64,000 nt of DNA from Chitinophagales bacterium (GTDB lineage Bacteria; Bacteroidota; Bacteroidia; Chitinophagales; Saprospiraceae): NCBI GenBank assembly GCA_017303875.1, contig JAFLBP010000005.1, positions 139,068-203,067 of the forward strand, given 5' to 3'. Each line of letters starts with the position of its first letter. Position 1 is the first letter of the stretch. Below are positions 1 to 14,477 of this stretch, piece after piece. The translations under genes and the position numbers were made by a program. The notes below the pieces were generated by a model. That model had not been told where the DNA came from, searched no databases, and saw nothing but the letters and a program-made list of their open reading frames with translations.

Positions 1-3000
1 GTTTGTAAAAGGGCAAGTTGTAGTTGCAAACCGGCATTAAAGCCATTCAAACCCTGCGATAAAATGGTGGTGTTCCGGAAATGCTCGTACACGGTACTCA
101 AATCGCGCTGAAAATCATTCTGGAAAACAGCAGGATTCAGCGGCCCTTTGGCAATATCCACATTCAATACGGATTGCAGGTACACGCGGATCTGATTGAG
201 CAAATTGTCGGCACTTCGGTTGGAGAGGGTTACCTGCCCACTCATTTGCTGGGGCGCGCGTTGCCCGTCGGAGCAATGCAGGAAGGGCGGTTTATCGTAA
301 TGGTACGTCAATTCCACATCATCCGTATCGAATAGGAAATTATCACTCAGGAAAGACCCCGAAACGCTTAAGCCATCCTGTGCATTCAGGCGGATGGTGT
401 CAAAATCCGCCGTCCAGGCCAAATAAAGTGGCAGGAATGGATTGTCGTTCCCAAGGGTATTCAGGCCGATATAGTAGGGCGCTACGCCCGAATAACTTGC
501 TGAAAAGGGTGCGCTGCCTTTGCTGCTGCTGAAGCTCAGTTGCTGCTCCACGGGCGGCGTCACCTGCTCCTGCTGGTCGGCAAGCAACTTGGCAGACAGC
601 TGCGCCTGAATATCCTGTAAGGCCGGCAATTCGGCAGCATTCAGTTTGGCAGCATTCAGCAATACATCCTGCGCCGTTTGCGGCAGCATAAAATATGTTT
701 CTGTAAGCAGGGCCTGTAAAACAGCGCTGCGTGTACCCAGCCCGGCGTAATTGCCGAGGTTCGGAATAGCCGTGGCACTCAACTGCGCAGCATTCACCTG
801 CACCGTATTGCCGCCGGCATTCAGCGTCAGCGTCCCGATCAGGTCGGCTACTTGCCGGAACGGCACCAGGGTTGCCGCACCATTCCGATTGACCGGCAAC
901 AGCGGTGAAGGCGCATCGTTGGGCTGTGTAATCACCACCACCGGGTCGTTGGGCAACCAGTACGGGTCGGCGGAGCCAAGCTGCACAATATTGTCGGAAC
1001 CAATTTTGAAGACCAGATCCGAAAACGCACCGGCCATGATTACCACCTGATGCCCCGTCGGCAATCCTTCAATCAACTGGAGCCAGGCCTTGCGCAGGCT
1101 CGCCGCACAGGTCTGATTGACATTGTTGGGCGCCAGTGCTGTGGTCAGGGATTGAAGCAAGGGTGAAAAATCGGCGCTACCGTTAGTGCTGCTCAGGTTT
1201 TGCATCAAAGTGCTCAGCTGTCCGACGATGTTATCGACTTGCTGTTTCAGGGCAGGTAATGATGCATTTACAGACTGGTAAGCGGCTGTTAAAGCTGGCA
1301 ACAAGATATTCTGGCCCTGATTCAGGCAATCCTGAAGGGCATTTTGGGTAGCCAGCAGTTTTGCACCGGCAATTTGCAGGGTGAGGCCGTCATAGTTGGC
1401 CGCCTGAAAATACAACCAGATCTGCTGGGTATCCAGCAGGTTGCTGTCGTTGAAGAATACAGATTGCCAATTGTTGATATAATTAGTCAGCGCGTCGGGA
1501 TCGGCGCCGTTTTGATGAAAATTATTGATCAGGTTGGTAATACCTTTTGTATTGTCCTGCAAAGCGCTCTGCAACTGAAGCAACTCATTGGGTAAAATGG
1601 TACTCACCGCGGCGTTGAGGTTGTCGGCAAGTGAAGTGTCGGCAAGTTGGGTTTGCAGCGCCGCAAGTTGCTCACCGAGGTTGTTACTCGCCAGAAAACC
1701 TTGTAATTGCGCCAGCGCGCCCTTGCTGTTGCCATTGTTGTAAATGGCCTGGGCTTCCAGTATGCCGTCCATCAATTGCGCAAGCGGTTGTACAAATGCC
1801 GGCCGCAGGGTATTTTCTGTAATGGCCAATTGGGTTGCCAGCCCTTGTGCCGTTGTATTGACGTAGGTATACACCGGCGTAAAATTCAATGCCGTACTGC
1901 CATCTTCCCTGGTATCCATGGAATAATAGCCGGTTTTTCCGCTTTCCGTATAAATCTGAAGTAATTCGCTTTCAATATAATTGCGCTCGCTGTCGGCCGT
2001 ATCAGAGGAACCGGAGCTGGCAACAAACGTCAGCCCCCAGCGCGTCCAGTCGAGAAAAGCCTGAGATTGGCGGCTTTCCAGGGCTGCAAGTTGTCGGTCA
2101 TAGGTTTGCTGTGTGGCATTAAGCAGGCTGAGCAGTTCGGCGTCGCTTGCTTGCAGCGGCGATTCGTCCTGCCCGATTCCGCTGTCATTGTTTTGCCCTT
2201 TGGGCCGCACCGTCCAGATACTGCCACCGCTGCGGGCGGCAAATTGCCGGGTATGGATATATTCCTCCAAAATGCCCACCGAGGCATTCGGATCGCTGCC
2301 GGCCAGGCGGCGCAACAAATCCTGCTGAAAGGCATTGAACAACAGCTCTACCTGTCGTTCAACGACCGGATAAGGCTCCTGCCCATCGTTTTCGCCTTCC
2401 GGCTGCACAATTTGTTCCTTGCTGATCAATGCGGAAATGGCTTCGGCAGCGTTATTGCCAAGCGCCAATTCCGGTTTAATATTCTGAAATACGGTATCGG
2501 GAAGGGGTAAAAAACTCTGATTGCCAATATCTCCGCCGGGTATCCAGGCTATATCGGCGGCGATGCCGTTGTAAAGGCTTTGAATGCCATCGGGCCAGTT
2601 GCCGCCATTTTGCCCGTCCATACCGACGGAAGGCGTCCATTTGAGTGATTTGGCGAGGTAATCGGCCAAATAAGCCATTTTGTCGGCAGGCGGATCACTT
2701 TCCTTTTCGTAAGCGGCTTTGGCATTATCAAGCAATGTGGCGGCAATGTCGGCTGCTCCGGCCTCACTGAACCAGCCGATAACCTGGTAAGAAACCCGGA
2801 AGCGGGCACCGAAAAGATTGGCCCGCCCGATGCCGATGTCCTTAAAATCGTCGCTGAAACCAAATACCGCCGCGCTGTTCTGATAATACGCCGCAAAACC
2901 CGGCCCGTAATAGCTGATGGCGTTCAAATCTTTATCGTACGCATCCGGATTACTCGCCTCATTATCTGTCCAGCTGCTATCAAAAACCCGGATACTGCCC

Positions 3001-3569
3001 AACAACTGATTGTTCAGGGTTGGCGGATTCTGCAATCCGGGGTTCAGCATCACAGGATTGGTACTTCTAAAAATTTCGTTGTTATCTACCAATAAAGGAA
3101 TCGTGGTCGGCATATTTCCTCCCAATGAAGCCATCTCGGAGGCAGCAAAAAGCCGGTTGCTCTCTATCACCCACTGCTGTACACAAACCCCGTGCGCCGC
3201 CACCTGAGCCTGCGCTTTGGCATCGGGCAAGGTATATCCCGGCTCCGGCGTCAGGTAGCGGGTGAGCAACCATCGGTTGGGTACCGCCGGAAAAACGATC
3301 GAGTCGCTGACCGGATCGTGCACGCCATGCGTCAGGGCATCGGGCAAAGACCAGTGCAGGTGCAGCCCCATCGTCATGGCCGATGGCGAATCAGGGAGGT
3401 CCTGATATATCTGCTCCCCAAGGAAGGTGTTGCTGCTGCCCAGCAGGCTGAAATTTACCGTAGATCCCTTAAAACGGCTTGGAATATTAACTCCGTTGCC
3501 AAGATCTTCTTCCAGTACCCGTATGGCCTGAACGTTTACCGGTATGATAAAGGTGCTGATGTTTGCCAT
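1..3569 (-). CDS. Very large uncharacterised protein, C-terminus cut by window edge
   Basis: The minus-strand frame starting at the ATG at 3569 (MANISTFIIPVNVQ) stays open to base 1, giving at least 1189 residues. It has no signal peptide or obvious membrane segment. The N-terminus carries two compact motif blocks, GLHLHWSLPDALTHG (about residues 68-82) and FPAVPNRWLLTR (about 93-104). Much of the remainder is rich in Gln, Ala, Leu and Asn and looks helical or coiled-coil, for example LEEYIHTRQFAARSG and ALAQLQGFLASNNLGEQL. It is the last visible gene of the five-gene operon and starts 23 bases after the stop of the 349-residue gene. I do not recognise a named family. The dispersed plus-strand frames inside it are shadows. 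The existence of the gene is secure; its function is unknown. Confidence 0.8.
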   Translation of the reverse strand, partial: MANISTFIIPVNVQAIRVLEEDLGNGVNIPSRFKGSTVNFSLLGSSNTFLGEQIYQDLPDSPSAMTMGLHLHWSLPDALTHGVHDPVSDSIVFPAVPNRWLLTRYLTPEPGYTLPDAKAQAQVAAHGVCVQQWVIESNRLFAASEMASLGGNMPTTIPLLVDNNEIFRSTNPVMLNPGLQNPPTLNNQLLGSIRVFDSSWTDNEASNPDAYDKDLNAISYYGPGFAAYYQNSAAVFGFSDDFKDIGIGRANLFGARFRVSYQVIGWFSEAGAADIAATLLDNAKAAYEKESDPPADKMAYLADYLAKSLKWTPSVGMDGQNGGNWPDGIQSLYNGIAADIAWIPGGDIGNQSFLPLPDTVFQNIKPELALGNNAAEAISALISKEQIVQPEGENDGQEPYPVVERQVELLFNAFQQDLLRRLAGSDPNASVGILEEYIHTRQFAARSGGSIWTVRPKGQNNDSGIGQDESPLQASDAELLSLLNATQQTYDRQLAALESRQSQAFLDWTRWGLTFVASSGSSDTADSERNYIESELLQIYTESGKTGYYSMDTREDGSTALNFTPVYTYVNTTAQGLATQLAITENTLRPAFVQPLAQLMDGILEAQAIYNNGNSKGALAQLQGFLASNNLGEQLAALQTQLADTSLADNLNAAVSTILPNELLQLQSALQDNTKGITNLINNFHQNGADPDALTNYINNWQSVFFNDSNLLDTQQIWLYFQAANYDGLTLQIAGAKLLATQNALQDCLNQGQNILLPALTAAYQSVNASLPALKQQVDNIVGQLSTLMQNLSSTNGSADFSPLLQSLTTALAPNNVNQTCAASLRKAWLQLIEGLPTGHQVVIMAGAFSDLVFKIGSDNIVQLGSADPYWLPNDPVVVITQPNDAPSPLLPVNRNGAATLVPFRQVADLIGTLTLNAGGNTVQVNAAQLSATAIPNLGNYAGLGTRSAVLQALLTETYFMLPQTAQDVLLNAAKLNAAELPALQDIQAQLSAKLLADQQEQVTPPVEQQLSFSSSKGSAPFSASYSGVAPYYIGLNTLGNDNPFLPLYLAWTADFDTIRLNAQDGLSVSGSFLSDNFLFDTDDVELTYHYDKPPFLHCSDGQRAPQQMSGQVTLSNRSADNLLNQIRVYLQSVLNVDIAKGPLNPAVFQNDFQRDLSTVYEHFRNTTILSQGLNGFNAGLQLQLALLQ

Positions 3570-3592
3570 TTTCAATAGTGCTTAAGGTTATT

Positions 3593-4642
3593 TCAGGCTG
3601 GATTTGAAGTGCAAGCCACCGGATCACCGGGCGCAGCATTGTAAAAGGTCACCATCCCGACGCCTTCCACCATTTGCAAAGCAAAATCGGAAGAAACTAA
3701 GGGATTGGCGTCGTTGCTCAGGCCACTGACATTTTGCGGGGATTCATTTTTTAATTGCGACACAACCGGCTCCACATAGCCTGTCGTATTGGCGCCTAAA
3801 GTCGCAAACATCATCGCTGAGAGATTGTACAGGTTCAGTACCTGCCCGCCGGCATTAGGGCCACTGGCTGTGCCGCCATTCCGGAAAATATTGCCCGTAT
3901 TCAGCTGCTGAGTGCTGAGCGTTTTCTGCGGACTGAATTTTTCGCCGGTATTCGGATCTCTCAAACTTTTTTCCAGGGCATCATTACTGTCCGGATCAGT
4001 ATCAAAACCAAAGTGCAGGCCTTCTGCCGGCTCGTGCAAATCCAGCCGGTAAAGTTCCCCTTCAAAAATCCCGATCAACACCTCGTCGGAGAGGTGCTCA
4101 TAACGCAGCATTTTCAGGCTGCTGCCATCCCAGTTGGGCAAATCCGGATAATTGCTTTTTTCATACGCCACCGCTTCCATGGAAGGCCAGCCGCGTACCA
4201 CCTCGGAGCGCAACAGAAATCCTGTCACAACTTCAAAAGCCGCAGTATTATCGTTCACCGCATTGGTTTTAAATGCGCCGGAGCGCACCTGTCTGGTTGC
4301 AGCATTGGCGCCCGACATCAGTCCACCCTGCAGGCTGCCTTCTACCTGATTGTACAGCGTCTGGGTATCTAAACCCGTGGCATAACGCCCGATGCTGTAA
4401 GCGCCGTCGGCCAGTGCATTCACCCAGTTCATATCTAAGTGAAAAAAGCGAATGGTTTCGGGCGGCAACAATCGCTCGTCGGGCACCAGGTAATGAAACG
4501 GCACCTGATGCAGGAGTTTGAGGCGGCCCAGCCACTGAAAGATCTGACGGGCTACCGGATCGTCTTGCTCCGGCGACGACTGCGTCAGTTTGATGCTGCC
4601 GAGTGCTGTTGAAAACGCCGGTTTTATGATAGATTTCGACAT
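3593..4642 (-). CDS. Uncharacterised protein of giant-protein operon (349 aa)
   Basis: Complete frame of 349 residues, MSKSIIKPAF to SNPA. It has no signal peptide and no membrane segment. Well-formed motif blocks suggest a conserved family: YLVPDERLLPPETIRFFHLD (about 51-70), then NWVNALADGAYSIGRYATG, FLLRSEVVRGWPSMEAVAY, and IFEGELYRLDLHEPAEGLHF. The pattern of a short ordered N-terminal block followed by an LLRS-WP block suggests a folded cytoplasmic protein. It lies 41 bases after the 492-residue gene and 23 bases before the giant downstream gene, so co-transcription is very likely. I cannot assign a function. The blocks look like family signatures but I cannot name the family. Confidence 0.8.
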   Translation of the reverse strand: MSKSIIKPAFSTALGSIKLTQSSPEQDDPVARQIFQWLGRLKLLHQVPFHYLVPDERLLPPETIRFFHLDMNWVNALADGAYSIGRYATGLDTQTLYNQVEGSLQGGLMSGANAATRQVRSGAFKTNAVNDNTAAFEVVTGFLLRSEVVRGWPSMEAVAYEKSNYPDLPNWDGSSLKMLRYEHLSDEVLIGIFEGELYRLDLHEPAEGLHFGFDTDPDSNDALEKSLRDPNTGEKFSPQKTLSTQQLNTGNIFRNGGTASGPNAGGQVLNLYNLSAMMFATLGANTTGYVEPVVSQLKNESPQNVSGLSNDANPLVSSDFALQMVEGVGMVTFYNAAPGDPVACTSNPA

Positions 4643-4683
4643 GTGCTAATGTTTTTGCTTGGTTTAAGCGCTTTTTCTGACGT

Positions 4684-6162
4684 TTATTTGCGGAAACGAG
4701 CTGTGCGGCTAATCAATGCCTGCATGGTGCCTTCCAGAAGATCCTGAGTGGTATTGCCCGTGGGCGTACCCTGATTGGCGAGTATTTCCGTAAAAGTTTC
4801 CTGGATGAGGTCTTGCTCTAACTGGTTTACCACGGCACTCGTCTGGGTGCGTTTCCACTGGTACAGATTCAGGGAGAAATTGCGATCCTGCAGGGCCAGC
4901 AGTCGGCCCAACTGCCAGGCCGAAGCGTAGGAAAGGTCGAACATGCCAATAGAAGGATCGAAGCGCAGCAGCGCATCGGCATCGTAAATGGCTGGTACAG
5001 TCTGGCCGTCTTCGGTTTTCAAAAACTGTATGGCTTCTCCGGCATTGTCGTCGAATTTATAGGGCGCCAGCGGCCCGCGATACCAGGAGGTGGTCAGCAC
5101 ATTGTTGCGGGTAGTATGCTTCATCGGTACGTAACCCAATTGTACCGGCACCGGCACGGTGGCATTGTTGGGCGGGTACAGGCGCATACGCGGTTGCGGG
5201 AGCGGCCCCGGCACAGCGGGTTTGCCATCGGGCGCCCGGTCATTGAGGCTTTCCAGCAAATGTTCAAATTTGAAAGAATCGCCCTGCGAGATAAAATGCC
5301 AGGAGTGTAGTACGGGCAGCAACGCATAGGTTGCATTGGCGGGAATAAGCGTCGATGGCACTCCATTGTGGTCGGGCAGATAATCCCCCATGTTTTCCAG
5401 CGATACCAGTACGGCCAGATGGCGCTGCCCGCTGACCGGAATACGATTGCCCAAAACAATGGAATAGGTGCCCACATCTTCCAGGTCGGAGCCGGGAGCA
5501 GCAGGTTTATTACCCATATTCACCGCGCGTACATTGGCCATCATAAACAGATCAGCCAAGGAAGGCGCCAAGGTAGAAAACAAGGCTATGGGCAGTTTCA
5601 GGGCTTGCACACTGGCCTGAATATCCACCCAGGATGGTTGATTATTCGGGTCATCTCCCTGCACCGGCGAAAGAAAAACATCCGATCCGTTGCTGAAAAA
5701 TTGCTGCACGGTGGTTGTTTGTAAGGCTATACTCAGGTCCGTATCGTTTTCTGTCAGAATCAGTACCGCCAGCCAGCTGGGCATGTCCCGATCATAGTAC
5801 ATTCCGCTGTTGTCCTTAAACGGATCAGTCACCGGCCCGCTCCCGTTTGCCGGCGTAAAAGGCAGCCGTATCCAGGGCAGGGTTTCGCTGTTTAGCACGA
5901 TATGCGGCAGTACATTGGAGAATTCCCCCTTGGCATCTTTGGGCGGGAAAACACTATGCACCACGCTGGGATCCATAGCAAACTGAGGTGCTTTTACGGC
6001 AAACTTATACAGCAACGGCGTTGTCAGATCAAGCCCGTTCGGGATTTTCCCTCCGGTATCTCCAAAGCGATGCTGGAGTTCAATGGCATATTCGCCGGCA
6101 TCCAGGCCCGGTAAATGGTGTTGGATGAAGGTCGCTTTTTCAATAAGTGTGTTATTGGCCAT
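4684..6162 (-). CDS. Uncharacterised protein of giant-protein operon (492 aa)
   Basis: Complete frame of 492 residues beginning MANNTLIEKATFIQHHLPGL. No signal peptide or membrane helix is visible. The likely conserved core is HSVFPPKDAKGEFSNVLPHI (about 69-88) followed by ETLPWIRLPF, then DRDMPSWLAVLILTEND and a later segment with RHLAVLVSLENMGDYLP and HSWHFISQGDSFKFEHLLES. The composition is that of a soluble mixed alpha/beta or beta-sandwich protein. It starts 93 bases after the stop of the 1725-residue gene, the largest gap in the operon. No clear promoter is visible in that gap. Function unknown; it probably forms a complex with the flanking products, which is inference from gene order only. 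Confidence 0.8.
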   Translation of the reverse strand: MANNTLIEKATFIQHHLPGLDAGEYAIELQHRFGDTGGKIPNGLDLTTPLLYKFAVKAPQFAMDPSVVHSVFPPKDAKGEFSNVLPHIVLNSETLPWIRLPFTPANGSGPVTDPFKDNSGMYYDRDMPSWLAVLILTENDTDLSIALQTTTVQQFFSNGSDVFLSPVQGDDPNNQPSWVDIQASVQALKLPIALFSTLAPSLADLFMMANVRAVNMGNKPAAPGSDLEDVGTYSIVLGNRIPVSGQRHLAVLVSLENMGDYLPDHNGVPSTLIPANATYALLPVLHSWHFISQGDSFKFEHLLESLNDRAPDGKPAVPGPLPQPRMRLYPPNNATVPVPVQLGYVPMKHTTRNNVLTTSWYRGPLAPYKFDDNAGEAIQFLKTEDGQTVPAIYDADALLRFDPSIGMFDLSYASAWQLGRLLALQDRNFSLNLYQWKRTQTSAVVNQLEQDLIQETFTEILANQGTPTGNTTQDLLEGTMQALISRTARFRK

Positions 6163-6255
6163 AATTGTGCTTTTTTAAAACAAAAAGAATTTAGGGGCTA
6201 TTCGGAAGTTAAGCTGCCATTTTTTGTTCCGAACAAGCGTTTTAAAACCCGACAC

Positions 6256-9200
6256 CTATTCCTCGCCGGTGAGCATCAGCGCCGGCCAGTCTTTATACAT
6301 GGGAGCAGCCAGAGCTTTACTGTCCTGACTTACCTCGAAGTTGTATCCAAACAGGTTGTTCAGGTTATTCACAAGGGCTGCACCGGCTGCTGCATTGCCA
6401 AAGGCATTGGCGTTGAGCTGTCGGAATGTACTTTGCACCACGCCGCCGCCCGGCATATTAAATTGCATACTGTTGCCGTCGCTGCTGATTTGCTCCTCGA
6501 AGGTGTTTGCTCCGGTTTCCGGCGTCGCTTCGACCGGCCAGCAGAGGTTGTTTGCGCCATCGAAAAGCAGCAGGTAAATATTGATGTCGCGCGTTTTTAA
6601 GGGATTCCAGATCTTGGGCGTCAGGTTGATGCCAAACAGGGCATCCTTGAGCAGTACCTCATCGTTGAGTACCGTACTGCCGTTGGACGGATTAACGAGG
6701 CTGCCCCAAAGCGACTTGGCAGCATTGCGGTTGAGAAGCGTTACCACAAAATTACTTTCGTAGGAGCGGGTATTGTTTTCCTCTAATTTATAGATTTTCA
6801 CTATAAAAGTAGACTCAAAACCGCTAATCAGGCTGCCATCCGTGCTAAATATGCCTTCTTCTATATCTACCGGCCCTACTTGAACCTTACACTTCCACCA
6901 GGCGGTAGCCAGGTCGCTTGGAACATCATAGGCGAAAATGACATCAGATTTGGTGCTGCCGTCGGGGTCTCTGCTGTAAAATGCCTTCGGATCATTGGTC
7001 GATTTATAAATGCTCTTCGCGCCGGGCGACGGCGTAAACTGTGCGGGCTGCGCCCTTGCGTTGAAGGAATCAGTGGGGCTGTTGGGCAGGTCGCCACTAC
7101 CCACCGGGTCACTATAATTGAACCAGAAGTTGTTGCAAGGCACACCGGCCAGCAACAGGAAGGCAAAATCATTGGGATCAATCAGCCAGTTGAACACTTT
7201 TTCATTGTTCAAATCAGCCTGCTTGAGGGGTTTATCGCTCAAGGTCTGGAGCATACCCGATTCAATATCCACCTGACTAACCGAGAAAGGCGGCACATCG
7301 GCAGCCGCAGCAAAGAGCAGTTCATTGCCCCGCATCAATTGCGGCGCAGCCTGCTCCGACGGCTGTGAATTGGGCAGGAGTTTTTTGAAATCCACCCAGG
7401 AAATCGGCGGCGGTGTGGGCGCACTGGAACCAAAACTGATGGTAAAGGAGAAAATGGACAAATCTATCCGCGCAGTACCGCCAAATTCAGGCCCCCAGAT
7501 ATTCATATCCACCCCGACATGGAAGTGAATCGTAAATAACAGGTGCAATTCAATGTCGATATGGATATAAGCATCCGCCAGATAGAAGAATGGTTTCCAG
7601 CCCAAAAGGAAGTCGAAACCGGCATCAAAAGTGGCTTTTACGATTTTAATGTCAAAAACAGCCGACATTTCCAGACCCGCCATAATCATGTGCGGCGTAA
7701 GCGCAAAATAGGCTTGTCCGCTGATTTTCAAGACGCCCAGGTTCCAGTTCATGCCCAAGCGCGGCACCGCCGGATACCAGGCCGGTTTATGAAATGCCGG
7801 GTGATAACCGCCGAGGGTGATCAGGAAATCGCCCGCACTCGCACCATTGAGCTGGTCTTTGTACCAGGTGTAAAAGGCAAAACCGCCCTGCAAATGACAG
7901 GCGCCCGAAAATACATAGGAAGCTGGCGTAAGTACTGCCAATACCGCAAAAAAGCCAGCTTCAGAATCGAAATTGATCTCAAAATCCAATTGCACAAACG
8001 CAATCGGCTCCTCCGGCTCGGGTACACTCAGGGCCGCCGAACCAATCAGGCCGATCTGGAAGCCCGCACCAAACGACATCTCCAAAATAGCCGTGACCTG
8101 CAACAATTCAAATGAGGTAAAATCCAGACCCGCTGCAATCCAATATGCGCCCGCTTTGGGCGGAATAAACTTAGCCAATTGGGTAAGCACCTGCGTAATA
8201 TCATCCACGCTGGCAGGCGCTCCCGTGGGCAGCGGATTGCTCGATGCCCCCGGCAAAAGCGGGAACGAGGGCAATTCCTCAAAATCGGGCATGATAAATT
8301 GCCGATTGATGCCAAAACCACCGGCCACCCCGTCAATAAAGAAGAACGGCGGCCCGCCCAAAGGCACTTCCACATTCAGGAAAATGAAAAAGCTGGGTTG
8401 CGGCGTCGTCGTCGCATACCCGCCATACGCCTGAATGCCAATACTGCCGGCCGTAATAATGAGCATGCCCATAAAATTGTCGTAGTTGTCGTCCATAGTG
8501 ACGAAACCACCGGCAATCCGCATGCCCCCCTTGTTCATATTCACACCCAGTCCATGCAAACGGAAACTTACATCCGTAAAGGATTGGGGCGGAAATTTCA
8601 TACCAATACCCAAACCCTGGAAGGACATGGCGATGCCACCGAGCGACAATTCCCCGGAAACATCAAGGGTTATTTTACCATCTGAAAATCCGATATTAAA
8701 ACCAGTCAGCGTTACCGGCCCGAAGGATTTGCCAACTTTTTGCTTTGTGTTATTGGTAGGCAGGCTGCTGTCGCTGTCGTCGCCGGGCGCGGCAGCAGGG
8801 CCGGGCTGCGCCACTTCGGCATCGCTGCTTCCACCCGTACTAATGCCTTTTCCGCTGAGAATCAGGTTGATCGGCTTCTTGTCTTCATTGATTTGAAAAA
8901 CGGCATTAAAAATTGCCTCGGCAGGCAAGCCCTGCCCGTCAGGCACTTTTGGTATCAGTGTAGTGGGCGCCGAAGCATTGGTAAAGAGCGTATTGAGTTC
9001 TGTAAGGTCCTCAGCACTCATGGCCTTCGGCACACCCGCAACTTGTATCTGATTGATGGTCAGCGGATTGGCCACTTTGGCAATATAGTCGCCGACAACC
9101 GGCAACTTGTCAAAATCAAGGGTTGGCTTGAATGCCACGGCAAAAAACGGCTTCCACACGGGCTGCGTATCGCTACCCGTTTTTACAATGGCAAAAACAA

Positions 9201-11433
9201 TCTCGCCGTAATGATCGGAGGTAACATTAAGCAGCAGGCCCTTACCTGCCGTGCCGGTATCGTATTCAAAACTGGCTTCGCTTATTTCAAGATCATTCAG
9301 GGCGTCGGGAATAGGCGGCGCCGGCGCATTGAAGGCTGCCGCAAAATCGCTGATGTTGAGCGGTTTGCCGGAGGCGTTCAATTTCGCGATGAGGGTGGTC
9401 TCTTTTGTGTTAGGGTCGCCGCCGCTTTTGGCGTCAAAATCAAATTCGAGCGCTTTTTCGGGCGCGCCGGCCGGGCCAATGAGGAATACACCTTTCAACT
9501 CCCAGCCATCCTTGTCGATATGATAGGTAATGGTGACGTCCAGCAGCTCTCCGGCAATCGGGAACTTAGCTTCAATGACCAACTCGAAAGTGCTGTCGGG
9601 CGGCGCATCGGCAGGCTTTGGCAGCGGCTGTGATGCGGTTTTGATCGGGGCAATATATTTCAGCGAGCACTGGGCAATCTGAATCTCATCCAGGTAATCC
9701 GGATGCTGAAATCCGAATGCTGTGGCCAGATCGCCAATCGCAAACGGATGGTCGGATTGTGCAGAGAAGGTCCAATCGGTATCGCTGCGCGCGGCGCTGA
9801 GGTCGAAAGCCGGTGCATCATCGCCTGTTCCAATGACGATTTGTGCGGCGATGCTACCCGTAATTTCCTCGCCGTTTTTATCCAGATCGGCTTTCAGGCT
9901 GCTGATTTTGGGCAAGGAAAAATTCGTAAAACTCCAGTCAATATCCAGTTCAATGCTGCCGGAATACAGGGATTTATCCGGCGTTGCCGAAAAAGCTAAT
10001 TCATCAATGCTAATGACCGGAAAATCGGCAGCATCGGAAGAAAACTGGCTGAACAGGTCGGAAAGTTGTATGGAAGAGCCTTCCACGAGGCCGCCATTCA
10101 GGGCAAAAACCCATTTTCCGATAGTTGGGTCATTGGTAAAATTAGCTTCAAAAGCCACATCCCCTTTCAGGAACTCCAGGTCGCCGGCGAGTAATATCTC
10201 CATATTGGAATTGGAGAGCGGAAATGTCGGGTTATCCACCGACCAGGAGACGGAAAACGCGTTCAGGGCAAACCAGTGAACATAGCCAATAGCCGGGCCG
10301 TTGGCGTAACCGAGCTTGAGCAAAATGGAGCTTAATTCCGGTTTGCCGCCTTGCGGAATATTCAATCCCACCGCGATATTCTCTATGCCGATATGGCTGA
10401 AAAAATCGCTTTGCTGAATTTTATCGGGCAGGTTGCTTTGTAAAACCGACTGCTGAAACAAAGCCTTTACATCGGCCAGACTCAGGGCGGGCTGGTCATC
10501 GAGGCCACTCATGGAAAAAAGCAGACTGTTGCCATCGAGTGGAATCAATGCCTGAATCAATGCATTCCCGATGGTGGTTTGCAGGAGCAGGTTGCTGCTG
10601 AGCACAGTCGCACTCTGGCTGGCGTCGCTGGGAGAGCTGGTAGCCGGAATAGCCTCAAACCCTGCATCAAATTCAAAAGTAATGGCCTCATTGCCTTGTA
10701 TAACGGCGTTGTGGTTGTCGCCCAGATCGGTCAGCAATTTCATGCTGATATTGGCCGAATCTGTACCGGTTTTGCTATTGTCTACCGGCCCGTTGAAGTA
10801 AAAAGTGCCGGTACTCAGGTCGCCGAACAGGTTTTCCAGCACCGGAAAAATGTCGGTCGACAAGCCAGCAGGCACTTGCAGGTTGAGGCCCGGTGTCAGG
10901 TTGGGGAAATTATTGGAGAATCCCGTACCTGGTCCGCCGAGGTTCCACTGTTGCGCGTGGGCCAGCGAGGTAAGCAACAGGGAAGGCGCGTGTGTGGTAG
11001 CCAGGTGACTGAACACAAAACTGCTGGCTAAGCCGGGGAAGCTGTCGGAGGGCGTCCAGATTGCTGTTACTTTATTTTGCAGGATGAGGGTAAAATCCAC
11101 CTGCGTGTTGCTGTCGTCTGAAAGGTTGACGGGCGTTACATACAGCGTTATTTCGGTTTGGGCCTTGGGGAAAGCCAGTACATCGCTGTCGGGTACGCCA
11201 AAAAGCAGGACGGAGGGCAGGTCGGCGCCCTTGCTGTCGCTCACCGAACCGGCGGGGGCGGCCACGGCCTTGAGGTCTGTGGCGCCGAGGTGCAGGCTGC
11301 TGATTTGCAGCTGGGTGGCAATGGCCGTTTTCAGGTCGCTGGTCCAGCTCAGGCCTGCGATGGGGTCGGTAAGTGAAAGCGCGTTATTTTTCAGCGCGGC
11401 ATTCAGGGTACTGATCAAAGACGCAATATTCAT
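6256..11433 (-). CDS. DUF6603-like giant beta-rich protein (1725 aa)
   Basis: Complete frame of 1725 residues without signal peptide. The first 900 residues are a long series of short amphipathic strands broken by Gly, Asn and Asp turns. Residues about 920-1340 form a glycine- and phenylalanine-rich region: LGGIAMSFQGLGIGMKFPP, GGMRIAGGFVTMDDNYDNF, FFFIDGVAGGFGINRQF, and near 1305 FHVGVDMNIWGPEFGGTARI. This region resembles DUF6603 domains as I remember them from large bacterial and fungal proteins; the assignment is by eye. The C-terminal 350 residues are a separate, less hydrophobic domain. It begins 12 bases after the nuclease stop codon, so the two are translated from one message. Repeated amphipathic strands suggest an elongated beta structure or lipid-facing groove, but this is speculation. 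Confidence 0.7.
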   Translation of the reverse strand: MNIASLISTLNAALKNNALSLTDPIAGLSWTSDLKTAIATQLQISSLHLGATDLKAVAAPAGSVSDSKGADLPSVLLFGVPDSDVLAFPKAQTEITLYVTPVNLSDDSNTQVDFTLILQNKVTAIWTPSDSFPGLASSFVFSHLATTHAPSLLLTSLAHAQQWNLGGPGTGFSNNFPNLTPGLNLQVPAGLSTDIFPVLENLFGDLSTGTFYFNGPVDNSKTGTDSANISMKLLTDLGDNHNAVIQGNEAITFEFDAGFEAIPATSSPSDASQSATVLSSNLLLQTTIGNALIQALIPLDGNSLLFSMSGLDDQPALSLADVKALFQQSVLQSNLPDKIQQSDFFSHIGIENIAVGLNIPQGGKPELSSILLKLGYANGPAIGYVHWFALNAFSVSWSVDNPTFPLSNSNMEILLAGDLEFLKGDVAFEANFTNDPTIGKWVFALNGGLVEGSSIQLSDLFSQFSSDAADFPVISIDELAFSATPDKSLYSGSIELDIDWSFTNFSLPKISSLKADLDKNGEEITGSIAAQIVIGTGDDAPAFDLSAARSDTDWTFSAQSDHPFAIGDLATAFGFQHPDYLDEIQIAQCSLKYIAPIKTASQPLPKPADAPPDSTFELVIEAKFPIAGELLDVTITYHIDKDGWELKGVFLIGPAGAPEKALEFDFDAKSGGDPNTKETTLIAKLNASGKPLNISDFAAAFNAPAPPIPDALNDLEISEASFEYDTGTAGKGLLLNVTSDHYGEIVFAIVKTGSDTQPVWKPFFAVAFKPTLDFDKLPVVGDYIAKVANPLTINQIQVAGVPKAMSAEDLTELNTLFTNASAPTTLIPKVPDGQGLPAEAIFNAVFQINEDKKPINLILSGKGISTGGSSDAEVAQPGPAAAPGDDSDSSLPTNNTKQKVGKSFGPVTLTGFNIGFSDGKITLDVSGELSLGGIAMSFQGLGIGMKFPPQSFTDVSFRLHGLGVNMNKGGMRIAGGFVTMDDNYDNFMGMLIITAGSIGIQAYGGYATTTPQPSFFIFLNVEVPLGGPPFFFIDGVAGGFGINRQFIMPDFEELPSFPLLPGASSNPLPTGAPASVDDITQVLTQLAKFIPPKAGAYWIAAGLDFTSFELLQVTAILEMSFGAGFQIGLIGSAALSVPEPEEPIAFVQLDFEINFDSEAGFFAVLAVLTPASYVFSGACHLQGGFAFYTWYKDQLNGASAGDFLITLGGYHPAFHKPAWYPAVPRLGMNWNLGVLKISGQAYFALTPHMIMAGLEMSAVFDIKIVKATFDAGFDFLLGWKPFFYLADAYIHIDIELHLLFTIHFHVGVDMNIWGPEFGGTARIDLSIFSFTISFGSSAPTPPPISWVDFKKLLPNSQPSEQAAPQLMRGNELLFAAAADVPPFSVSQVDIESGMLQTLSDKPLKQADLNNEKVFNWLIDPNDFAFLLLAGVPCNNFWFNYSDPVGSGDLPNSPTDSFNARAQPAQFTPSPGAKSIYKSTNDPKAFYSRDPDGSTKSDVIFAYDVPSDLATAWWKCKVQVGPVDIEEGIFSTDGSLISGFESTFIVKIYKLEENNTRSYESNFVVTLLNRNAAKSLWGSLVNPSNGSTVLNDEVLLKDALFGINLTPKIWNPLKTRDINIYLLLFDGANNLCWPVEATPETGANTFEEQISSDGNSMQFNMPGGGVVQSTFRQLNANAFGNAAAGAALVNNLNNLFGYNFEVSQDSKALAAPMYKDWPALMLTGEE

Positions 11434-11445
11434 CGGAAGCGGGAT

Positions 11446-12483
11446 TTAATTATTTATCTCGACGGTGATGGTCACAGGAAGGTGATCGCTGATGCCTGCT
11501 GTTTTGCCTTTTTTGGCTTTTGAATTATCCAGGTTCTTGGTAATGAAGGTATTGAAAGAATCTTCTACATCTTCATTCAGGGTTCGTTTCTTCCCTTTGG
11601 TCGGTTTACTTTGACGCTCATTGGCCATGTCATTGATGACATTGATTACCCCAACGGGACGGGTCTTATACTTTTTGACTTTTTTCCCAAAAATATTATC
11701 ATAGGCATTTTCGGCTACTTTCGGGCTGGAGCCGGAAGTATCCACTTTTCCCAGGAGGCTGCTGCCGACACCGTCGGTGACTTCTACGTCAAAGCCGCTG
11801 CTGCTTTGCAAGGTGTTAAAAAACGATTGGTTACTGTTGTAATCCAGATTGGTATCGCTGCCTATGATGACCGGAGTGGTTCCGGCAATGGCGCTACACG
11901 CTGTCATACAGTCTTTGATGGCGTTTTTGATGTCGGTTTCTTTATCAAAATTGGCGCAGGCATGGAAGGAAACCACCCAAATTTGTTGTGTGGCAGGGTT
12001 AGCGGCGGTATTTTTAAGTTCAAAAAGGCAGGCGGCGGGGCGGCGGGAGTTGCCGAATTTCAGATCCTTGTCGTTTTCATCCTTACGCAGAATGAGCGGG
12101 CCTTTTTTAAGCGTAATTGCCGTTGGATACAGCGGATCTGTGGTGGAGCCGACCGGGGTAGATTTCCAGAAAAAAGCATAGGCATCGCGGTCTTTGTTGC
12201 CAGCGTTTACACCGGAGACGGCATACATCCATTTGGAAACTTTATCCTGCTTGTTTAATTCGCTGCATAATTGCTTCAGGGCAACTTTGGCGCCTTCCAG
12301 AATCAGGTCTTCCCCAATTTGAGCGCGTTTTACTCTCCGGTTGGCAACAACCTCCATGATGGCAAAAACATCAGCGCCGTCGGTGAGTACGGTTTGTACG
12401 ATATTCGACATCGTGTACGAATAGTCGTAATTCCCGAAATCTTTAAGATTCCAGGATAAAAATCGCAGGCAGATTGTTGACAT
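11446..12483 (-). CDS. Endonuclease/exonuclease/phosphatase (EEP) family protein
   Basis: 345 residues with the full set of EEP-fold catalytic landmarks: SWNLKDFG with Asn12, AIMEVV with Glu44, VSFHACANFD with His174, GSDTNLDYN with Asp210 and Asn212, and ISDHLPVTI with Asp333-His334 near the C-terminus. Members of this superfamily are metal-dependent phosphodiesterases acting on nucleic acids, phosphoinositides or sphingomyelin; the substrate cannot be told here. There is no signal peptide, so it is probably cytoplasmic. It is the first gene of the minus-strand operon and is followed after 12 bases by the 1725-residue gene. A Lys-rich stretch precedes the final SDH motif. The family call is strong, the substrate unknown. 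Confidence 0.85.
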   Translation of the reverse strand: MSTICLRFLSWNLKDFGNYDYSYTMSNIVQTVLTDGADVFAIMEVVANRRVKRAQIGEDLILEGAKVALKQLCSELNKQDKVSKWMYAVSGVNAGNKDRDAYAFFWKSTPVGSTTDPLYPTAITLKKGPLILRKDENDKDLKFGNSRRPAACLFELKNTAANPATQQIWVVSFHACANFDKETDIKNAIKDCMTACSAIAGTTPVIIGSDTNLDYNSNQSFFNTLQSSSGFDVEVTDGVGSSLLGKVDTSGSSPKVAENAYDNIFGKKVKKYKTRPVGVINVINDMANERQSKPTKGKKRTLNEDVEDSFNTFITKNLDNSKAKKGKTAGISDHLPVTITVEINN

Positions 12484-12755: not shown

Positions 12756-14477
12756 ATGGCTAAAGCAACATCTACCAAAACAAAATCCACCGCCTCAACC
12801 CGCCCTGTTGCGGAGGAGCAATCCTATGCCTGGGTTGCCTGGGCCATTGCAGCGCTTGCCTTTTTCCTCTACCTGCCGGGCTTCCGCAATGCGATGGTAA
12901 GTATGGACGACCACTCAGCCACGGTCGATAACCTCGCTGTGACCCAGTTTGCGCCTTTTTCGCATTTCCACAACCTTGGCATGTACGCGCCAATTACCTG
13001 GCTTTTTTACGCAATTGCTTATAAATTAGGCGGAGATGCGCCGGTTTGGTACCATATTTTCAGTGCGCTGGCACATGCCCTGAATACCTGGCTGCTGTAT
13101 CGCTTAGTGTCCAAACTGCATACCGACTGGCAAATTGCCGCCATGGCAGCCGCACTTTTTGCCGTACATCCGCTGCAAGTAGAAGCGGTGGCCTGGATTG
13201 CCGGTTTCAGCACCCCTTTGTTTGTGTGCTTCTTTCTGATGGGCCTCAACGTCTGGGTTTCCCGACCGGAGGGTGATAAAATATTCAGTCGCCCCTACCT
13301 GCTTGTTTTGGGCGCTTTCCTGCTGGCGGCATTGTCCAAATCAGCGGCAGTTACCTTCCCGCTGGCTTTATTGGTTATCGATGCCTGGCGCGGGAAAAAC
13401 TGGCGTAGCAGTAGTGCATTGCTCGAAAAAGCGCCTTTTTTCCTGCTTTCCCTGCTTTTTGGCTGGCTCACCCTGCAAACCCGCGATGCGGCCGGGCATA
13501 GTCTGGCAACCTCCGCAACGGAGTTTTCCATGATTGACCGCCTGTATATGGTCAGCCACACCATTCTGTTTTATTGGGGCAAATTTCTTGCGCCTTTTGG
13601 CCTGAGCATCTGGTATCCATTTCAGAAAATGGATGGCCAGTGGCACTGGTCTTATTATGCAGCGCCGCTGGCCCTGCTGGCGGTGGCGGGTGCAGCCTGG
13701 TATTTCCGGCGCCGGGCCCGGCTACTGTGGTATGCGCTGCTGTTTTATCTGGCAAATATTGTAGTCGCCTTGCCTTTTGCCACTTTCGGCACTTTTGAGC
13801 TGCGCTCCGATCGTTATAATTACCTTGCCGGCATCGGTATTTTTGTGTTGCTGGCGGCCCTGCCGGGCTGGCTGGGACAAAAACGCCCGGCATTGCTGCA
13901 GCCCGCACGCATTGCTGTTGGCTTGCTTGCCCTGCTTTGGATCGGGCTTTCTTATGTGCGTATTACGGAGTGGAGCAGTACCGTGAAGCTCATTGATAAA
14001 GCTATTGCGGCACAAGGCGACAACCATGGCAAAGCCTATTTGTGGCGCGGTATGGAGTTGGGTAATCAGGGCAAAATGCAGGATGCACTCCAGGATTTTA
14101 CAAAAGCCATTGAAACAGACTCCAACCTTGTAGACGCCTATAAATACCGTGGCGGCATCATGGGCCTTGCCCGCCGCTACGATCAATCCGTGGCCGATCT
14201 CAGCAAATACCTGCAATACCACCCTGAAGCCGCCGAGCAGTTCTTCAACCGTGGCTTGTCGTACACCAACCTTGGAGAAAATGAAAAGGCGCTCGCCGAT
14301 TTCAACAAAACCCTGGAATTAAATCCGGATTTCTACCGCGCTTACAATGCGCGCGGCAATGTGTACCTCGCCATGGGCGATACCGAAAAGGGCAATGCCG
14401 ATCTTCGACAATATCAGGCCCTGGATGCTAAAGCAAAAGCCAAGGCAAAGCAGAAGCCGAAAGCGAATAGAAAATAA
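12756..14477 (+). CDS. TMTC-like multi-pass membrane protein with C-terminal TPR repeats
   Basis: 573 residues. After a Lys/Thr-rich cytoplasmic start, about ten hydrophobic segments run from residue 28 to 410, followed by TPR units from about 425 to 550 (NHGKAYLWRGMELGNQGKMQ, AEQFFNRGLSYTNLGENEKA, FYRAYNARGNVYLAMGDTEK). The membrane part has the loop motif FAVHPLQVEAVAWIAG and the early VSMDDHSATVDN acidic motif, the layout of TMTC/PMT-like glycosyltransferases that use lipid-linked sugars. The tail is very Lys-rich (AKAKAKQKPKANRK). It is monocistronic, with its own -7 element. Likely role: membrane glycosyltransferase or a related protein; the substrate is unknown. The architecture is well supported; catalytic activity is inferred. 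Confidence 0.7.
   Translation: MAKATSTKTKSTASTRPVAEEQSYAWVAWAIAALAFFLYLPGFRNAMVSMDDHSATVDNLAVTQFAPFSHFHNLGMYAPITWLFYAIAYKLGGDAPVWYHIFSALAHALNTWLLYRLVSKLHTDWQIAAMAAALFAVHPLQVEAVAWIAGFSTPLFVCFFLMGLNVWVSRPEGDKIFSRPYLLVLGAFLLAALSKSAAVTFPLALLVIDAWRGKNWRSSSALLEKAPFFLLSLLFGWLTLQTRDAAGHSLATSATEFSMIDRLYMVSHTILFYWGKFLAPFGLSIWYPFQKMDGQWHWSYYAAPLALLAVAGAAWYFRRRARLLWYALLFYLANIVVALPFATFGTFELRSDRYNYLAGIGIFVLLAALPGWLGQKRPALLQPARIAVGLLALLWIGLSYVRITEWSSTVKLIDKAIAAQGDNHGKAYLWRGMELGNQGKMQDALQDFTKAIETDSNLVDAYKYRGGIMGLARRYDQSVADLSKYLQYHPEAAEQFFNRGLSYTNLGENEKALADFNKTLELNPDFYRAYNARGNVYLAMGDTEKGNADLRQYQALDAKAKAKAKQKPKANRK

Follow-up and report, generated by a model that had tools for sequence, protein, structure and literature searches.

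A giant-protein operon of a Chitinophagales bacterium may be a copy of a conflict cassette that spreads horizontally and has an exchangeable enzyme

A stretch of 64,000 nucleotides from a Chitinophagales bacterium (contig JAFLBP010000005.1, positions 139,068 to 203,067; hereafter the window) begins with a minus-strand operon encoding a predicted EEP-fold phosphodiesterase, a giant DUF6603 protein and several further large proteins. We found that DUF6603 and its downstream companions form a core conserved across phyla, that the gene directly upstream of DUF6603 changes from locus to locus, and that the identity of this "slot" enzyme co-varies with the DUF6603 N-terminus and with no other part of the core that was compared. 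That the operon is a conflict cassette spread by horizontal transfer, with an exchangeable enzyme matched to the DUF6603 N-terminus, we judge to have an even chance. The core families are named p492, p349, p1702 and p631 after the window's proteins of 492, 349, about 1700 and 631 amino acids, and loci are cited by their L numbers. The features are as follows.

11446 to 12483, minus strand: slot gene, encoding an EEP-fold phosphodiesterase/nuclease of 345 amino acids (assigned from the open reading frame, Pfam, NCBIfam and a motif alignment with L068, L135 and L076)
6256 to 11433, minus strand: DUF6603 giant protein of 1725 amino acids (open reading frame and Pfam)
9634 to 11433, minus strand: DUF6603 N-terminal part (about residues 1-600), which co-varies with the slot enzyme and is proposed to be its cognate adaptor or restrainer
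7327 to 8736, minus strand: PF20248 DUF6603 core (residues 900-1369), a predicted amphipathic antiparallel β meander
4684 to 6162, minus strand: p492 family protein of 492 amino acids, the family found most constantly beside DUF6603 and in many genomes joined to p349 in one protein
3593 to 4642, minus strand: p349 family protein of 349 amino acids with the motif VPDERMLPxESIRFF
1 to 3569, minus strand: N-terminal part of the p1702 family protein (whole gene at G000:C45:137534-142642, 1700-1702 amino acids)
Beyond the window, G000:C45:135606-137501, 132684-135602 and 129842-132613: p631-family paralogues of 631, 972 and 923 amino acids

Scanning one genome per species with a DUF6603 profile retrieved 187 relatives, of which the 80 best loci were examined; they come from 12 named phyla. 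In 75 of these 80 loci a p492 family gene lies directly downstream of DUF6603 and in the same orientation, and three of the five loci without an adjoining p492 lie no more than 1.5 kb from a contig end. All four core families (DUF6603, p492, p349 and p1702) are present in 65 of the 80. The DUF6603-p492 pair occurs in 11 named phyla: Bacteroidota, Pseudomonadota, Actinomycetota, Cyanobacteriota, Acidobacteriota, Chloroflexota, Myxococcota, Thermodesulfobacteriota, Sumerlaeota, Chlorobiota and Bacillota. When 395 Bacteroidota genomes were searched independently with PF20248, 17 had a match, 16 of them above the cut-off, and at all 16 loci with strong matches, as in the window, a p492 relative adjoins DUF6603. 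Clusters of this kind were also found on plasmids of Streptomyces, Nocardia, Rhizobium, Paenibacillus and haloarchaea. The operon comes in two orders, with p1702 downstream in 54 loci and upstream in 15, and in both the slot gene stands just before DUF6603; at many loci p492 and p349 are fused into one protein. Pairwise distances among the four core families correlate at 0.37-0.59 (76 loci; null maximum 0.16). The original prediction was of one complex or particle, and it had taken recurrence of the 492-, 349- and over-1189-residue families beside DUF6603 in unrelated phyla as the sign of a conserved system; their recurrence in at least 11 named phyla, with correlated divergence, supports it strongly.

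The gene upstream of DUF6603 is, by contrast, variable. EEP enzymes occupy the slot in the window and in its nearest relative (L068), and a second form, with every catalytic motif, has the same place at two other loci (L135 and L076; Paraflavitalea and Solirubrobacter). Elsewhere the position is held by ComEC-like metallo-β-lactamase (MBL) hydrolases (11 loci, 10 of them with the HxDxDH motif), class-3 lipases (Lipase_3; the L123 group and L080), subtilases (Peptidase_S8; the L051 group, with D/H/S motifs present), NleD-like Peptidase_M91 metallopeptidases (L097 and L133, HExxH present), an HNH protein (L077), PhoD (L063), DUF4135 (the L122 group), a weakly matching LCAT-like domain (L125) and further families without a Pfam match. 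Some genes listed upstream are plainly outside the cassette, for example RecG in L145. The slot enzymes are predicted to attack nucleic acid, lipid or protein. No general docking domain common to the slot proteins was detected by phmmer. The EEP gene, which had been read as the leader of the cluster, is not part of the core and is ruled out as a fixed component: it is one exchangeable occupant, paired with DUF6603 in the window genome, its nearest relative, Paraflavitalea and Solirubrobacter and replaced by other enzymes at other loci.

The choice of slot enzyme is reflected in the protein that follows it. How alike two slot enzymes are predicts how alike the DUF6603 N-termini are when core similarity is allowed for (partial rho 0.394, null maximum 0.09, 59 loci), and 41 of 1711 locus pairs are alike in both, where about 2 are expected from the margins. 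Among labelled loci the mean N-terminal similarity is 0.095 for same-slot pairs against 0.0017, and none of 2000 shuffles attained the observed residual. The signal covers DUF6603 residues 1 to about 600, weakens at residues 601-800, and is absent for p492 (0.023), p349 (0.018) and p1702 (0.021). DUF6603 N-termini belonging to several of the slot types are distantly homologous to each other, which is what a single adaptor domain diverging together with its partner would produce. In Microcystis novacekii (L096) and M. wesenbergii (L118) the cassette occupies the same chromosomal site, with flanks 95-97% identical. The DUF6603 C-terminal part and p492/p349 are common to both at 85%, whereas the slot gene (MBL versus family CL3) and the first ~500 DUF6603 residues do not align; the pair shows a natural swap of slot enzyme and DUF6603 N-terminus at one site. 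Small open reading frames (ORFs) before the L096 slot were considered as orphan immunity genes, but on visual inspection they resemble Uma2 and MNT/HEPN-type genes, with no relation to the slot proteins. The idea that the DUF6603 N-terminus carries an activating protease, on the pattern of nuclease-protease defence pairs, was likewise rejected, no protease being found there. The original prediction, supported as regards a complex, had missed both that the slot is exchangeable and that it is matched to the DUF6603 N-terminus.

The distribution of the cassette is patchy and horizontal. Phyla are interleaved in the DUF6603 tree, which needs 32 phylum changes against a minimum of 10, and the window protein groups with those of Roseobacteraceae, Pseudomonas, an actinobacterium and a Sumerlaeota bin (starred support). 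Because the core phylogenies correlate while the phyla interleave, the cassette moves horizontally. In a Methylococcaceae and a Desulfocapsa bin it is 90% identical over 10.5 kb (L121:2248-12786 and L128:1241-11777), a near-identity that may reflect either recent transfer or misbinning of the metagenome-assembled genomes.

In the window itself, the five minus-strand ORFs lie at the predicted positions and the intergenic gaps of 12, 93, 41 and 23 bases agree with their coordinates, provided that the fifth gene begins at the ATG at 3569. This ORF is open from 3569/3575 to the window edge; its product, predicted to have at least 1189 residues, is 1702 codons long from a TTG or 1700 from the likelier ATG. 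The cluster of five genes is real but larger than was thought, since the operon has eight genes once the assembly is read past the edge: after the fifth come three paralogues in tandem, the intergenic gaps being 32, 3 and 70 bases. A divergent gene starts at 12756, which makes the EEP gene the first of the run. A crude hydropathy check found no signal peptide, as had been claimed, and no transmembrane segment.

The DUF6603 assignment was borne out by a PF20248 match of 456.7 bits (E 1.2e-136, residues 900-1369), far above the curated cut-off of 27 bits. The EEP protein scored 15.2 bits against Pfam PF03372, under the gathering score of 24.5, and aligned with MnuA-type nucleases (NCBIfam NF045851) at 65 bits, under the cut-off of 185. 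When it was aligned with the L068, L135 and L076 proteins its catalytic motifs were complete (WN, E, H, GxDxN, DN and SDH), and by motif, not by profile, it is classified as a divergent member of the EEP (DNase I-like) superfamily. Pfam gave nothing credible for the 492-residue, 349-residue and fifth proteins, and no core protein other than DUF6603 reached a Pfam or NCBIfam cut-off or had a PHROGs or PADLOC match. No significant match emerged when PDB sequences were searched with profiles of p492, p1702 and DUF6603, and a Pfam search gave no sequence link between the DUF6603 protein and AsmA, TamB or VPS13. Searches of the literature without subscription papers and preprints found no paper naming DUF6603 or PF20248. 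A phage or virion origin was rejected, as there was no PHROGs match and no DUF6603 in the phage collection.

The model of DUF6603 residues 330-1500 (pLDDT 74, pTM 0.47) shows a long run of amphipathic strands, its modules being separated by short helices. Its best PDB matches in Foldseek were ApoB100 (E 1.3e-7) and LptD, and its best VIA matches were porins (Z up to 14.1, rmsd over 11 Å). The model has serial strand-helix modules, and no repeating β-groove or AsmA-like protein is among the PDB matches listed. With low confidence in the overall shape, we read it as a lipid- or membrane-facing sheet. An outer-membrane porin would fit the strand shape, but was rejected because the protein lacks a signal peptide and family members are found in Gram-positives and haloarchaea. 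The p1702 family model is confident (L137 copy; pLDDT 82, pTM 0.81) and has an N-terminal β domain and a 40-residue helical hairpin. It had no Foldseek match at E ≤ 1e-3 in PDB or BFVD, and assignment to a known fold was rejected, as the best VIA match (Z 7.6) covers the helical hairpin only.

A second, diverged cassette type was observed at L050-L053, L055-L057 and L061-L067, haloarchaeal plasmids included (L062 and L063). It comprises DUF6603, a protein of ~1100 amino acids and mostly also a protein of 1200-2600 amino acids unrelated to p1702. Of p492 this type retains no more than a related N-terminal domain, carried by the ~1100-residue protein (hhalign 97.5%), and a proposed kinship of the giant proteins of this type (CL1) with p1702 was unsupported (hhalign probability 0.1). 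DUF6603 proteins of ~3100-3400 amino acids with an extra N-terminal part occur at L078, L083, L087, L094, L123, L129, L136 and L140, three of them after a class-3 lipase slot gene; a search with 2000 residues of this part from L123 gave no Pfam match. On a Paenibacillus polymyxa plasmid (L060:436-5431), baseplate-V and DUF4280 genes lie ~9 kb before the DUF6603 cassette. Downstream of the window, the 972- and 923-residue p631-family copies (L002) have a longer C-terminal part, which may be a β propeller, and the latter has a weak SMP-30 match. An MmeI-type restriction-modification enzyme (L002:834-3587) lies ~7 kb past the operon end, and the ORF L002:5505-6998 resembles Fic proteins by eye.

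In the mechanism that we propose, DUF6603, p492, p349, p1702 and the p631 family would form a giant β-rich scaffold without recognisable export signals. The slot gene would provide a destructive enzyme that can be exchanged, in this case a metal-dependent EEP phosphodiesterase that is probably a DNase. The DUF6603 N-terminus would act as the cognate adaptor that binds or restrains this enzyme, and the amphipathic core would touch lipid or membrane. A release or trigger, such as the particle meeting a membrane or an invader, would let the enzyme reach its target. We infer the physical complex, the restraint, the membrane contact and the role of the enzyme as effector. The cassette is probably a weapon or a defence device with exchangeable warheads. 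To the fuller proposal, that it is a new and widespread modular conflict machine whose β-rich giant scaffold is unrelated to known delivery or defence systems and whose enzyme is matched, controlled and released by the DUF6603 N-terminus, we give an even chance. The earlier suggestion of a lipid- or nucleic-acid-handling system is right in part, given the amphipathic DUF6603 model and slot enzymes with nucleic acid, lipid or protein as predicted targets.

We keep both readings of where the cassette acts, outside the cell as a weapon or inside it as a defence. The M91 peptidases and lipases of the slot recall delivered toxins (PMC3482391). The defence reading stays alive because no immunity genes were recognised, the L070 slot MBL has as its nearest PADLOC families the reverse transcriptase-associated MBL and LmuA, and MBL nucleases are known that are encoded just upstream of a defence gene and activated by its N-terminal part (PMC12799240). 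In that account, which we consider possible but doubtful, the core, like Lamassu or AVAST, senses a phage or plasmid and frees the slot enzyme to destroy nucleic acid, lipid or protein within the infected cell. Lamassu also pairs one sensor with many effector activities (PMC10586767), and the lack of signal peptides, the patchy horizontal distribution and the MmeI-type enzyme in the operon's own flank would suit a defence system. However, the core has no ATPase, nucleotidyltransferase or known sensor, no core protein belongs to a known defence family by PADLOC, the DUF6603 N-terminus has no protease, and giant amphipathic β sheets are unusual among defence systems. An unlikely alternative is a lipid- or polymer-handling complex, in which DUF6603 is a lipid-binding β groove or belt presenting lipids or membranes to accessory catabolic or remodelling hydrolases. 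The serial amphipathic strands with ApoB100 and LptD as best PDB matches, and the lipases and LCAT-like domain of the slot, speak for it; but slot nucleases and peptidases are at least as common as lipases, AsmA, TamB and VPS13 have no sequence link, and the PDB matches are of shape only, with rmsd over 11 Å.

Several observations weigh against a conflict cassette. No immunity gene was recognised at the cassette loci, unlike antibacterial polymorphic toxins, and no export route was found, the marker of extracellular contractile injection systems (eCIS) not being significantly associated. The CL3, CL5 and CL18 slot families have no known enzyme domain, the DUF4135 and PhoD occupants are not obvious toxins, the CL8 class-3 lipases lack a plain GxSxG, and some metagenomic contigs may be misbinned. 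Linkage alone would also make the slot gene co-vary with the adjoining DUF6603 5' end, as one recombination moves both, and could yield part of the observed co-variation. That nothing more than this is at work, with separately acting genes travelling together, strikes us as very improbable: the order is conserved in at least 11 phyla and two operon permutations, p492 and p349 are fused at many loci, and the pairing is kept between loci with far-apart cores. The breakpoint inside the gene, together with pairing kept between very different cores, suggests selection. If the cassette serves as a weapon or in immunity, a large piece of microbial conflict has been missing so far. The cassette is traded between phyla and carries swappable nucleases, lipases and proteases. 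Its core has at least four families, three of them unnamed, in an order conserved from Bacteroidota to Cyanobacteria and Actinomycetota, and a diverged form of it is found on haloarchaeal plasmids. The pairing of slot and N-terminus makes the model directly testable.

Parts of this design are familiar from other systems. PF20248 in Pfam defines only the core domain, with no function, and covers neither the cassette nor the variable N-terminus nor the slot. The long amphipathic antiparallel β strands of the DUF6603 model resemble the sheets of ApoB100 and LptD, but DUF6603 has no sequence relation to them, the shape match has a large rmsd and there is no signal peptide. The eCIS, as multi-gene particles with exchangeable cargo, serve as a working analogy, but the cassette has no sheath, tube or baseplate families. 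The eCIS marker Pvc16 occurs in 6 of 16 cassette-positive and 70 of 379 other Bacteroidota genomes (p 0.096, not significant) and is absent from the window genome and from 10 of the 16 positive genomes; a reading as eCIS cargo was rejected accordingly. Lamassu and the nuclease-protease modules share interchangeable effectors and an MBL nuclease just upstream of its partner gene (PMC10586767, PMC12799240), whereas the cassette has an unrelated core without SMC-like or NTPase components and no DUF6603 N-terminal protease. Polymorphic toxin systems likewise have a constant carrier with swapped toxin-like enzymes, including nucleases, lipases and NleD-type peptidases, replaced by recombination inside a gene (PMC3482391). 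In contrast to their C-terminal toxin tips, the cassette enzyme is encoded by a separate gene 5' of the carrier, its cognate partner is the carrier's own N-terminus, and neither a recognised immunity gene nor a known trafficking domain was found. The logic of a constant carrier with an exchangeable effector is familiar; this machine is not.
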